Assembly: GCF_006715225.1 (NCBI RefSeq)
Contig: NZ_VFMU01000001.1
Coordinates: forward strand, 868,001-932,000
From: Arthrobacter sp. SLBN-112
Lineage (GTDB): Bacteria > Actinomycetota > Actinomycetes > Actinomycetales > Micrococcaceae
DNA: 64,000 nucleotides
Reading direction: 5' to 3'
Shown: in pieces, positions 16,737 to 24,115 of the stretch
Numbering within the stretch: position 1 is the stretch's first letter
Layout of the letters: each line of letters begins with the position of its first letter
The notes under the pieces: model-generated
What the model was told of the DNA's origin: nothing
The model's input: the letters and a program-made list of their open reading frames with translations, nothing else
Database searches by the model: none
Made by a program: the position numbers and the translations under genes

Positions 16737-18038
16737 ATGGGGAAAAAATCAGACGAAGTTTTCGGTATCTCGAATACGATCTTGCCCGATTCATACGTGG
16801 ATCGAGGTGCACTTGATACGGAGATCGGCCAGCAGATTAACCGAAAAGTTCATCTCGCCATACGTGGCGCCTCCAAAACTGGAAAAACTTGGTTACGCCA
16901 GCGTCTTGCCCCGAATTCTATTGTAATCCAGTGCCGTTTAGGTAAGTCCATTGAGGATATTTATAAGGAGGCCCTCGGGCAGCTTGATATTAGACTCGTC
17001 ACGAACTCGACGAAGGGTCGCGAGCTAACCGGGACGGTTGAGGCCGAAAGCGAATTTGGTATCAACCTTATTGGAAAAGTCAAAGCGAAACTAAACCTTG
17101 GCACGAAGGCAAGCTCGGCCGTCTCATCCACCCATCTTAAACAAAACGTTGAAGACCTGAAGTTTATAGCCGAACTGATCTTGGAGTCAGGACGCAGGCT
17201 TGTAATCGAAGATTTCCACTATTTGTCTCACGACGAGCGGGAGCATCTCGCCTTTGACCTCAAAGCGTTGTGGGATCTCGGCGTCTTCGTAATCGTCATT
17301 GGCGTTTGGAGTGACAATAACCTGCTGCTCAACATCAATACAGATCTTTCCGGCAGAGTTCGAGAGGCTTCCGTGAGTTGGAGCGACCCGGACCTTCATC
17401 AAGTACTTAGAAATGGCGCTAATGCGTTGAATATAATATTCAACGCTGACGTCGCCAAGGAGCTTGTACGAATCAGCTACGGGAATGTAGGAATTCTCCA
17501 ACGGCTCACTCTCGATGTTCTTGATCGCACTCAAATATTTGAGCGCCAGCACTCTTTAGTACGCGTTGACAATATAGAAACCGTCCGAGATGCGGCGCTT
17601 TTTTACGCGGAAGAACTAAACTCGGTATACCAATCCTTTGCCCAAAATGTCTCCAAGGGAATACGAACCCGAAGGGGTTCCACTGGCATTTATGCTCATG
17701 CCATGGCCGTTGTTCTTACCTGTGACGATAGTCAACTCTTGAAGGGCGTGCCGTTAGATGATATTTTCCGCATTGCACATGAGCGGGAGCCTAGGATTCA
17801 AAAGGGTAATCTTCGTATCGCGTTAGGTAATATCGAACGCCTCCAAGTCGACGACGCTGGCCGCGGCCTAGTGTTGTCCTTTGCCGACGGCAAGGTCAGG
17901 GTCGTTGATCACCAATTACTCCTTTACCGCGCGTTTACTACCGTCGAGTGGCCGTGGGACGACATTGTTCGCCAATCGAAGGAAGGGGGAGAAGACTACG
18001 AGGCTACCTCTACGCAGCTGCTGTGGCAGGACAACTGA
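16737..18038 (+). CDS. AAA/STAND-like P-loop ATPase of unknown function
   Basis: 433 residues. Walker A GASKTGKT (44-51); Walker B-like LVIEDF (155-160); sensor-1-like strand VFVIVIGVWSDNN (183-195); DLSGRVRE (203-210), where an Arg finger or sensor 2 would fall. The order resembles ORC/TniB-like or STAND ATPases, but I do not recognise the family. No membrane segments or obvious nuclease motif; the C-terminal 200 residues are unassigned. The gene is much richer in A+T and uses A/T-ending codons, unlike all neighbours, which suggests transfer. It is convergent with jetC. ATG 16737 was chosen for TATGCT 6 bases upstream; an in-frame ATG at 16632 is possible. Confidence 0.75.
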   Translation: MGKKSDEVFGISNTILPDSYVDRGALDTEIGQQINRKVHLAIRGASKTGKTWLRQRLAPNSIVIQCRLGKSIEDIYKEALGQLDIRLVTNSTKGRELTGTVEAESEFGINLIGKVKAKLNLGTKASSAVSSTHLKQNVEDLKFIAELILESGRRLVIEDFHYLSHDEREHLAFDLKALWDLGVFVIVIGVWSDNNLLLNINTDLSGRVREASVSWSDPDLHQVLRNGANALNIIFNADVAKELVRISYGNVGILQRLTLDVLDRTQIFERQHSLVRVDNIETVRDAALFYAEELNSVYQSFAQNVSKGIRTRRGSTGIYAHAMAVVLTCDDSQLLKGVPLDDIFRIAHEREPRIQKGNLRIALGNIERLQVDDAGRGLVLSFADGKVRVVDHQLLLYRAFTTVEWPWDDIVRQSKEGGEDYEATSTQLLWQDN

Positions 18039-18367
18039 CTCGCCGCAGCCACTCACAACGGTGGCCGACCACTAGACCAAGGTCTGCACCGTCTCTGACT
18101 TTCGCTGTTGCAACCCGTCCGTCGTCCTCTGCAGCGGCAATTGTCGTGAAGGCGTCACCTGCCATCGGCCCCAGCCACCCGCCTGATGCGGCGACCAGGA
18201 AAGCGCCGGCCATTATTAGGGAACCCCTCAGGCAGCAAACCCAGTGCAGTCTGGAGTTTCACCTGCCGCCTTGAGTCTCGAAGGTGCTGCGGGCTCCGAG
18301 TTCTACAGAAACTCCGGGGATCGGAATGATGCGCTTCTATCGTGCACCACGACAAGTCGCGGGCCAG
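18039..18367. other. Gap downstream of jetC where jetD would be expected
   Basis: A 329-base stretch between two convergent stop codons. Minus-strand reading after the jetC stop gives only short frames (18155-18355 and 18010-18213) that do not resemble the DUF3322/DUF2220 JetD nuclease. No strong terminator is seen; AGACCaaGGTCT at 18075-18086 is the only tidy inverted repeat. Possible junction of a replacement event. Confidence 0.5.
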
Positions 18368-21841: not shown

Positions 21842-22665
21842 TTGGTCACCTCAGTCTTTGTCGCCTTCGACTCCGCATCGGCTGCTGCGTCTTCTCGTCC
21901 GTCACCAGGGGCAGCGGCATCGGCGTCGTCGTCCTCGGCGCCACTGTCCGCGTCCAGGTCAAGCATTGCCTCGGTACCGGTGGGATCGGTGCTTGCCGCC
22001 ACCAGGGCTTCGATGTGGGCCGGGATGTCGCCGATGTTTTCGAACGGCAGGGCCAGGGGCAGGGCGTTGGAGATGGCGTAGACGTCGTCCAGGCCGGTGG
22101 GAAGCAGGAGCTGGCGGGCCAGGAGCTTGGTGATGGCACGGGTCACCACGTCCGAGTCCCGGAGGGCGTCCTGCTGGCCGGCGGGCTGGTAGTGCGCCGC
22201 CAGGTCCGCGATTTCCTCGCGGGTAATGGTGGGGTCCGTCTGGGCCGTGACGTGCCGGTCCAGCAGCAGGCGGAGCCGGAGCAGCACGATGGTTTCCACC
22301 CGGCTGAGGGCACGCTGCTGGCGCAGGATGCTGGACCGGGCGCTTCCTCCGATGACGTCCGGATCCACGGGGCGCAGGACCGCGATCTTGCGCTCGTGGT
22401 CCAGCTGGAGGGTCAGGAACAGCTCGGACAGGCGGCTGCGCAGGATCACCTGGTTGTCCAGCAGGGTGGTCCAGAGCTTTTCGTCCCGGCCGCCGTCAAT
22501 GTACGGGCCCTTCAGCAGCTTCACCAGGGCCTGCCGCACCTTCACGGACAGGACGCCGGTGTCACCGGGGAAGAGGGCGGCGCCGTCCACGAAGGTATCG
22601 CGTGGGAAGACTGGTCCGGGGTACCCAGCGCCCGATGAGTCCTGTGCGTGCGTAACCTCAGTCAT
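21838..22665 (-). CDS. jetB: JetB/MksE-like subunit (DUF4194)
   Basis: 275 residues of the DUF4194 (MukE/MksE-like) type: winged-helix regions around [20 protein letters not shown] and [22 protein letters not shown]. The Asp/Ala-rich acidic C-terminal tail (about 225-275) is probably disordered. It bridges kleisin and SMC in Wadjet complexes. ATG 22665 overlaps the jetA stop by 8 bases (ATGACTGA); the longer frame lies inside jetA. Confidence 0.9.
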
Positions 22666-24115
22666 CTGAATCCTTTGCGAGCGTAACCACGGGCAGATAG
22701 GCCCTGCGGGTGGAGCCGTCGATCTGTTCGAAGTCCAGGCCATCCCAGGCGCTGCGGTTGAAGTCGGCCCCGGCGTGCAGGGCCTCCGACAGGAGCGCGC
22801 GGATGGTGTTGATGTGCTGCTCTTCCGGCGGCAGCTGCTGCCAGGCGTCCGCGAGGGTGGCGGCCCCTGCCATGGCAGACCGGACCACGTCCGGCCTGGC
22901 TTTGCCGGTCCTCGGCGAGCGCACCCGGTCCGAGTCGGTGAAGGCGATGGGATCGGCCAGCCGGGGCGGCGCCGCGAATTCGTCCGGATCGAAGAGCTTC
23001 ACCATGGACAGCGACTCAAACCCGGCGTTGTACAGGACGGGCCCGTGCACCAGTCCGGGGCTATCGCGCTCGTAGGGAAGGGAACGGATGGCCTGCTCAG
23101 CCTCGCGAAGGACCCGCCGCAGCCGGACCGACTGGCGGAAGTCATCGCTCTGGACGTACGTGTTGAGGCTTTCGCTGAGCTTGCCGTAGATGCGCTGGAT
23201 CTGGCTGTGCTGCTGGCGGAGCTCGGCCACCAGGTTCTTCAGCGTCTCCCGGTCGTCCGGCGAGAGGTCGTCGGCGAACTGGCGGCTCAGGACTTCCCCG
23301 ATGGCTGACCGGAACCTCACCTGCTGCTGCGGGTCCTCCAGGAAGGCGGTAAAGGAGCGGAACGTCCTGCCCTCGGGGCTTTGGCGGAGCCGCTTGTCCG
23401 CTTCCAGGACCTGGGCCATGGTGGCGCCCTTGGTCAGGGACTCCTCGATGATCTGGTTGCGCAGCCCGCCCACCAGTTCCTCGATCCGGTCACGCATCTT
23501 CTTATAGTCGGCGGGGAGGCTGGCGGCCAGGTCCAGGATGTTGCCGGCGGCCTCCACGGCTTCGTCGTCATCGAGCAGGCCGTCGAACCCGCCCGTGCTG
23601 ATGTCCTGGATCAGCTGCTGCCGCTCTTCGATTTCCTCTTCCAGGGCTTCGAGCCTGGCGCTCTGGTCCGGGTTGGTCTCGTTGGCGAGCTTTTCCACGT
23701 CCCCCAGCAGCGTGCCCAGCCGTGAACCGTTTAGAGTGGACCGCTCGCTGGAGAGGCTGTCCAGGAAGGCGAGCACACGCGCCGCCGGCTCCGTGGCCTC
23801 GTAGACAATCCGGCCTGACTGGTTCCGCCGGGTGAGGAACTGCCGCCGGGTCCACTCGTCGCCGAAGGCCTTTCCGTTGGCCCCTCCGCCCAGCCCGGGA
23901 TCCTGGCGCCGGAGCTCCTCAAGGAAGGAGTCGACGTCGGCATGGAATTCCTCGAGCGGAACCTGCGGCCGGGTGCGGGTAAAGGAAGCCTGGAGCACGG
24001 CAATCACCCAGGGCGCCGAACGCGTCAGGGCCCACGCGGGTCCCTTGGTGAGGAGTTCGAGGTCCCGGAGCCGGGCGCTGATGGCGTCAGCGGATGACCT
24101 GGCGGAGCGGGGCAC
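22658..24115 (-). CDS. jetA: JetA/MksF-like kleisin (DUF3375)
   Basis: 485 residues matching DUF3375. It starts with [30 protein letters not shown] and has a central helical, probably coiled-coil segment (about 165-280). The C-terminal beta-rich part ends [15 protein letters not shown]. JetA is the MukF-like kleisin joining two SMC heads. GTG 24115 was chosen because AAGGAG lies 5 bases before it; the frame runs further upstream without protein-like sequence. It is the first gene of jetABC. Confidence 0.9.

Follow-up and report, generated by a model that had tools for sequence, protein, structure and literature searches.

A vertically inherited jetABC locus without JetD in Arthrobacter looks like a defense system turned housekeeping chromosome machine

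An intact jetABC operon without JetD

We analyzed a 64,000-nucleotide stretch of the Arthrobacter sp. SLBN-112 genome (contig NZ_VFMU01000001.1, positions 868,001 to 932,000; here called the window), which carries on its minus strand three overlapping genes, jetABC, for a condensin-like complex of the Wadjet type without its nuclease JetD. The jetA gene (mksF; 22658..24115, GTG start) encodes the kleisin (DUF3375), jetB (mksE; 21838..22743, with a likely start at ATG 22665, giving a product that begins MTEV) the KITE subunit (DUF4194), and jetC (mksB; 18368..21841, GTG start) the 1157-aa ATPase of the structural maintenance of chromosomes (SMC) family. The JetA product matched DUF3375 in Pfam at 297.8 bits and the PADLOC model JetA1 at 867 bits; JetB matched DUF4194 at 99.5 bits and JetB1 at 511 bits, and scored 23.3 on the Pfam MksE model, under that model's cut-off of 27; JetC matched Pfam AAA_29 and SbcC_Walker_B, and JetC1 at 1163 bits. 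Read from the sequence, the jetA stop overlaps the probable jetB ATG at 22665 by 8 nt, and the jetB stop overlaps the jetC GTG by 4 nt (21838-21841). Across 20 aligned core JetC proteins, invariant residues comprise G48 and G51-T56, SGGE 1036-1039 with QR 1041-1042, and D1072 and E1073, which we take to be the Walker A, signature and Walker B motifs, respectively. The initial annotation of this DNA, made from the letters alone, had described jetA, jetB and jetC in tight overlapping order with intact ATPase motifs, and the domain matches, overlaps and alignment bear this out.

The closest solved chains to JetC are the Wadjet JetC subunits of 8as8/8bfn/8q72 and 8dk2. For JetB, whose core is conserved in relatives while its tails vary, a single-sequence search of solved structures gave no match, and a profile retrieved only the JetB chains of 8as8 and 9qxt, at an E-value of ~0.03. 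The IFDR motif, a JetD-contacting element of the JetB N-terminus, was absent, as were two looser patterns of it, from the N-terminal 110 residues of every JetB protein compared, 18 from core loci and 18 others (17 of these JetD-linked); being absent from core and JetD-linked JetB alike, it does not discriminate here.

The window thus holds JetA, JetB and JetC in one operon, as in type I Wadjet, and no JetD with them. From the jetC stop (18368) to the stop of the next gene, that of a convergent ATPase (18038), there are 329 bases, too short for a JetD gene, given JetD frames of 377-452 aa at 20 genus loci. Neither JetD_C (PF09983) nor DUF3322 (PF11795) was found anywhere in the 4.40-Mb single-contig genome, which is rated 100% complete, whereas the control, Corynebacterium glutamicum, matched in both searches. 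With jetABC intact, both JetD domains absent genome-wide and the control positive, the observation that no JetD-like frame follows jetC is confirmed, and the same searches refute, for this genome, the suggestion of a JetD at another site. The operon is an intact, complete SMC-kleisin-KITE complex without JetD, not a damaged Wadjet.

A core locus of the genus under purifying selection

To place the locus in its genus, we used 150 genomes of Arthrobacter, Pseudarthrobacter and Paenarthrobacter. A jetC match was present in 149, including 141/141 of those with completeness of at least 90% and contamination of at most 5%; the sole genome without one is a 68%-complete assembly. Among the full-length matches listed, jetC is 83-98% identical to that of the window. 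JetD was found in none of 80 named loci (from the same three genera, plus one metagenome-assembled genome recorded as Micrococcaceae bacterium) within the flank available, little sequence lying past jetC in L215, L228, L237, L262 and L264, as also in genome G223, so that JetD absence is weakly tested there; 20 further relatives' loci had none either. Genome-wide, JetD_C occurs in 66 of the 150 genomes, leaving 84 without any JetD.

The surroundings are conserved as well. Upstream of jetA lies an acyl-CoA dehydrogenase gene (24738..26738, plus strand; Pfam), found in 19/20 fetched relatives and 76/80 named loci, and beyond jetC lie genes for a FepB-like binding protein (Peripla_BP_2) and a FecCD permease (14175..16365, minus strand; Pfam), found by jetC in 18/20 and 64/80, giving the recurrent order acyl-CoA dehydrogenase - jetA - jetB - jetC - FepB - FecCD. 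In 34/34 genus genomes jetC keeps both its orientation and its side relative to dnaA, at a distance of 165-514 kb or ~4-10% of the chromosome (chromosome sizes exact for 20, rounded to 0.1 Mb for 14). These data support jetABC as a vertically inherited core locus of the genus. A scan for a defense island, covering nine open reading frames (ORFs) at 0.7-10.9 kb, with the window right of 30.8 kb outside the scan, returned only a weak CARF-like match in a MarR-type regulator. The locus sits in an iron/redox neighborhood, not a defense island; ferric-reductase-like and ApbE-like genes lie at 1832-4723, near the FepB/FecCD cluster.

Median ratios of nonsynonymous to synonymous substitution rates (dN/dS), measured against 18-20 relatives, were 0.075 for jetA, 0.183 for jetB and 0.067 for jetC, compared with 0.061, 0.143 and 0.154 for the neighboring acyl-CoA dehydrogenase, FepB and FecCD genes. 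Both jetA and jetC are under strong purifying selection, near the level of acyl-CoA dehydrogenase. ScpB, the only part of Smc-ScpAB that we searched, was present in 28/28 genomes tested, that of SLBN-112 included; Smc-ScpAB therefore very probably coexists with jetABC.

JetD is absent across a clade of eleven genera

Extending the search to the family, we collected JetB homologs from 149 genomes of 32 genera and looked for JetD within 8 kb. JetB of at least 40% identity over at least 190 positions (a cut chosen after viewing the list; a 33-residue piece of the G103 gene is left out of the count) was found in 60 genomes of eleven genera, once in each, and JetD was within 8 kb of none of these 60 places. 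JetD accompanied 29 of the other 37 JetB places; the remaining eight comprise a split gene counted once for each of its two halves, one place on a short contig, four of g10 (described below) and one of g14. The short JetB match of G264 (42% over 125 positions) has JetD nearby. No JetD at all was found in 39/60 of the family genomes that bear the core locus. At the level of individual loci, 26 core-type loci from ten other genera all contain jetA, jetB and jetC and none contains JetD, one of them (L175) testing this little, as its contig ends 145 bases past jetC. The local JetD profile was built from 13/30 loci, the rest having no plus-strand frame of at least 300 aa; it retrieved JetD of other families at E-values of 1e-37 to 1e-49 and the divergent JetD of L101-L103 at 1e-16 to 1e-20.

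We also looked downstream of jetC for a shared partner that might replace JetD. Among ten loci of nine other genera (g22 unsampled), with one ORF per locus picked by eye, there was none: eight of these ORFs belong to named, differing Pfam families and two to no family.

A recently broken Wadjet would likewise lack JetD, and eight genus genomes with partial jetC matches only could be read as further stages of such decay. Purifying selection, the presence of jetC in 149/150 genomes and a JetD-less clade of eleven genera contradict this, and we regard it as hardly credible; on the same grounds, the loss of JetD is old.

Probable descent from type I Wadjet by loss of JetD

To examine where the core locus came from, we built two JetC trees. 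The first started from 101 rows, cut to 83 by removing seven duplicates and 11 near-identical genus rows, and placed 36/36 core rows on one side of a branch with a support of 100 in the Shimodaira-Hasegawa-like approximate likelihood-ratio test (SH-aLRT). The second used 42 hand-picked rows, omitting the long-branched L086-L098, L104, L105, L101 and f11, with an outgroup of JetD-linked type I JetC from proteobacterial plasmids (Sphaerotilus, Pseudomonas and Thiodictyon), themselves on long branches. It again gave one core clade (21/21 rows, SH-aLRT 100), which includes the JetC of an Arthrobacter sp. ERGS1:01 plasmid and which groups (SH-aLRT 99) with a set holding the JetD-linked L100 and L103 together with the JetD-less g10 rows.

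The g10 rows (L193, L286, L287 and L288) form a second JetD-less jetABC lineage outside the core clade; JetD was present in 0/4 of the loci fetched, and no PF09983 match is listed for those four genomes. In L193, a benzoate transporter (BenE) gene follows jetC. A single group of all 25 JetD-less rows, named after the first tree had been seen, was rejected by the approximately unbiased test (p = 6.4e-11). The 42-row tree needs two changes: either JetD was lost twice, or it was lost once and regained in L100/L103, and two losses are the likelier, because JetD sits in the operon. Phylogeny and gene content together support the view that core jetABC was once a type I Wadjet (JetABCD) and has lost JetD, and JetD was most simply lost twice in the family, a count tempered by the long branches and the hand-chosen rows.

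The omitted f11 JetC clade comprises 11 rows (L144, L146, L147, L149-L154, L160 and L162) and shows no JetD in the ~1.5 kb of flank available. One further f11 locus, L289, has FepB/FecCD-like genes between jetC and a jetB-like gene that lies ~6 kb upstream, and another, L290, has no jetB within ~10 kb of jetC; the f11 genome G389 carries JetD beside a second jetC.

Accessory JetD-linked operons carry their own subunits

The JetD genes of the genus belong to other operons. At 20/20 of the JetD loci fetched, the gene immediately ahead of JetD is a different jetC, ~25% identical to core JetC in most loci, and a jetA-like gene lies upstream; jetB was recognized by the core query in 11. Eighteen JetD places in 17 of 34 genus genomes fall at two distances from dnaA, 22-28% (16) and 41-44% (two), and this shared distance of 16/18 accessory JetD places suggests a defense hotspot. 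The clustering is seen in, for example, G006, G041, G073, G116, G126 and G141.

These operons might supply JetD to core JetABC in trans, as 66/150 genus genomes have a JetD to offer. That leaves the 84 genomes without JetD, SLBN-112 among them, and the 39/60 core-bearing family genomes without it unexplained, and JetD has its own jetA and jetC beside it at all 20 loci fetched, so we consider supply in trans very improbable.

The neighboring ATPase is a recent arrival unrelated to jetABC

Convergent to jetC lies a gene for a P-loop ATPase (16737..18038, plus strand) that resembles archaeal Walker ATPases and Orc1/Cdc6 and is not part of jetABC. Its GC content is 0.497, and 0.536 at third codon positions, against 0.66-0.71 and 0.83-0.89 in six neighboring genes, so that the initial annotation was right to call the gene convergent and compositionally foreign. 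Queried without its first Met (from 16740), the product matched the PADLOC model PDC-S59 at 603.6 bits, residues 2-421 of 432 covering model positions 3-424 of 428; the model also matched 32/32 aligned ATPase sequences. The ATPase thus fits PDC-S59, presumably a single-gene phage defense candidate, over nearly the full length of the model; we found no paper under that name in the open literature, and a single-sequence search of solved structures gave no match.

The ATPase gene is carried on a private segment (16424..18367) without homology to relatives' loci. In blastn comparisons with 20 relatives' loci, homology ends at 16402-16444 in 18/20 (L083 and L085 have none on that side) and restarts at 18358-18372 in 20/20; a search for a target-site duplication around the segment gave only weak short repeats. 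In relatives, the junction between jetC and fepB that the segment replaces is variable, holding a lipoprotein-like gene, an FBP_C zinc-finger gene, an MFS transporter gene, transposase genes or just 128-186 bp. Transposase genes occupy it in L080 and L081, indicating that it receives insertions repeatedly. With no JetD in the core loci of 20 fetched relatives and a junction that varies, to say that the ATPase sits in the place of JetD, as the initial annotation did, is misleading.

The same annotation had proposed that jetABC and the ATPase form a variant defense system in which the ATPase replaces JetD, a proposal that draws on their adjacency and on the status of the ATPase as a PADLOC defense candidate. 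A close homolog of the ATPase occurs in 1/150 genus genomes, against 149/150 for jetC, and in 0/80 named loci within the flank available; its many relatives lie in other taxa, across phyla and far outside the family, and jetABC is absent among the neighbors of one annotated relative that we examined. Together with convergent orientation, foreign composition and a private segment between conserved flanks, these results refute the proposal, to which we give next to no credence, and we rejected the ATPase as a jetABC partner. It is a horizontally acquired recent arrival, a single-gene defense candidate unrelated to jetABC. As for its carrier, we also tried and rejected a phage- or plasmid-borne gene: matches were few (7/72,556 plasmid records and 1/50,697 phage records), none above 50% identity. 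On a Methylobacterium indicum plasmid (L301), a PDC-S59 ATPase relative adjoins BrnT/BrnA, near an abortive-infection-family gene.

Discussion

We consider it probable that jetABC of Arthrobacter is a vertically inherited, JetD-less, ex-Wadjet condensin that works like MksBEF beside Smc-ScpAB, the neighboring ATPase being uninvolved. Conservation, position, selection and the lack of JetD are observed; action on the chromosome is the part we infer. Its homology to Wadjet JetABC and its intact motifs suggest an ATP-driven loop extruder that loads on DNA, in which the kleisin JetA, together with the KITE protein JetB, would bridge a JetC dimer. A review describes the JetD of Wadjet as likely activated once a small circle has been fully extruded (PMC10586767). 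Here, where extrusion has no JetD to trigger, the motor should run and then let go of the DNA, which makes chromosomal DNA the likely substrate, and JetABC would serve the host chromosome as an additional condensin, like Pseudomonas aeruginosa MksBEF. Of the three explanations that the initial annotation had left side by side, the evidence supports this one, a condensin-only MksBEF, and neither JetD elsewhere nor a variant system with the ATPase.

An alternative that retains defense is immunity without a nuclease, in which JetABC would recognize circular extrachromosomal DNA by extruding loops and then compact or mis-segregate it so as to restrain or silence it, in the way proposed for eukaryotic Smc5/6, or would recruit an unlinked nuclease of another family. 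In its favor, the nearest solved structures to JetC are those of Wadjet JetC, and all three subunits match Wadjet models in PADLOC. Against it, jetABC is present in nearly every genome of the genus, at a fixed origin-proximal place there and with housekeeping-like dN/dS, all of which is unusual for a defense gene, no common partner gene adjoins the ten loci of nine other genera, and some members themselves lie on large replicons; we see this alternative as unlikely, while giving it real weight. A more far-reaching form of it, in which the whole eleven-genus clade is a nuclease-free Wadjet that restrains circular foreign DNA uncut, a bacterial counterpart of Smc5/6 kept as a core function, strikes us as somewhat less likely again.

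Several observations weigh against a second chromosomal condensin. Of the eight genomes with only partial jetC matches, the four fetched each keep both halves of the gene in place, as a single frameshift would leave them; these frameshifts may be sequencing errors or true losses, and, if real, the gene is dispensable there. The faster evolution of jetB, perhaps from its variable tails, fits housekeeping less well than that of jetA and jetC. The position of the locus is constant in the genus but not beyond it: among 13 genomes of other genera its distance from dnaA is 1.3-18.6%, and it shares the side seen in the genus in four and takes the opposite one in nine. Nor is the locus strictly chromosomal. 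A 754-kb plasmid of Arthrobacter sp. ERGS1:01 (L296) carries a core-clade copy, arranged as DUF3375, DUF4194 and ATP-binding protein with an EamA transporter gene after them, and a 1.35-Mb replicon bears a jetC that shares 86.7% identity with that of the window. Lastly, C. glutamicum MksBEFG, which has MksG, is reported to act on plasmids and not in chromosome folding (PMC7083940; further work on MksBEFG and MksG in PMC10123090). On the ERGS1:01 plasmid, a gene for a bifunctional RecB nuclease/DEAD-box helicase precedes jetABC.

Among known systems, the locus shares with type I Wadjet (MksBEFG, EptABCD) three condensin-like subunits, the overlapping jetA-jetB-jetC order, the JetA1/B1/C1 models and the nearest JetC structures, and differs in having no JetD/MksG nearby or genome-wide and in being core and vertical in the genus. 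P. aeruginosa MksBEF, which serves chromosome segregation, likewise has three subunits without a nuclease alongside Smc-ScpAB; in contrast, the locus here belongs to Micrococcaceae, a family that also holds JetD-linked type I relatives and has two separate JetD-less lineages, and we liken the two by gene content, not by tree. In the passages of a review that bear on this, MukBEF and MksBEF are proposed to derive from a Wadjet-like defense complex, MksBEF, that of P. aeruginosa included, having likely lost the nuclease, with the relationships not resolved (PMC10586767); general SMC features are covered elsewhere (PMC10512200). One survey puts the frequency of Wadjet in Actinobacteria at 42% (PMC10482375), a figure in which the share of JetD-less loci is not evident. 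At the level of titles and passages in the open literature, we found no description of a JetD-less core JetABC in actinobacteria. In Paenarthrobacter lasiusi S21, JetA, JetB and JetC are tabulated as 'Wadjet' without JetD, beside a full type I system, and reported as antiviral, the lack of JetD drawing no comment in the passages concerned (PMC11719660); judged without an alignment, they are probably the same core locus.

PADLOC calls the core proteins Wadjet, so defense surveys that accept JetA, JetB and JetC without JetD could over-count anti-plasmid systems in the family. The locus also questions the generalization from C. glutamicum that actinobacterial Mks complexes act on plasmids only. 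Core JetD-less JetABC and accessory JetD-linked operons coexist in one genus, often in one cell, and JetD was most simply lost twice in the family, which makes the passage from defense to housekeeping testable in culturable soil bacteria. Together, these results describe a locus that looks like a defense system turned housekeeping chromosome machine.

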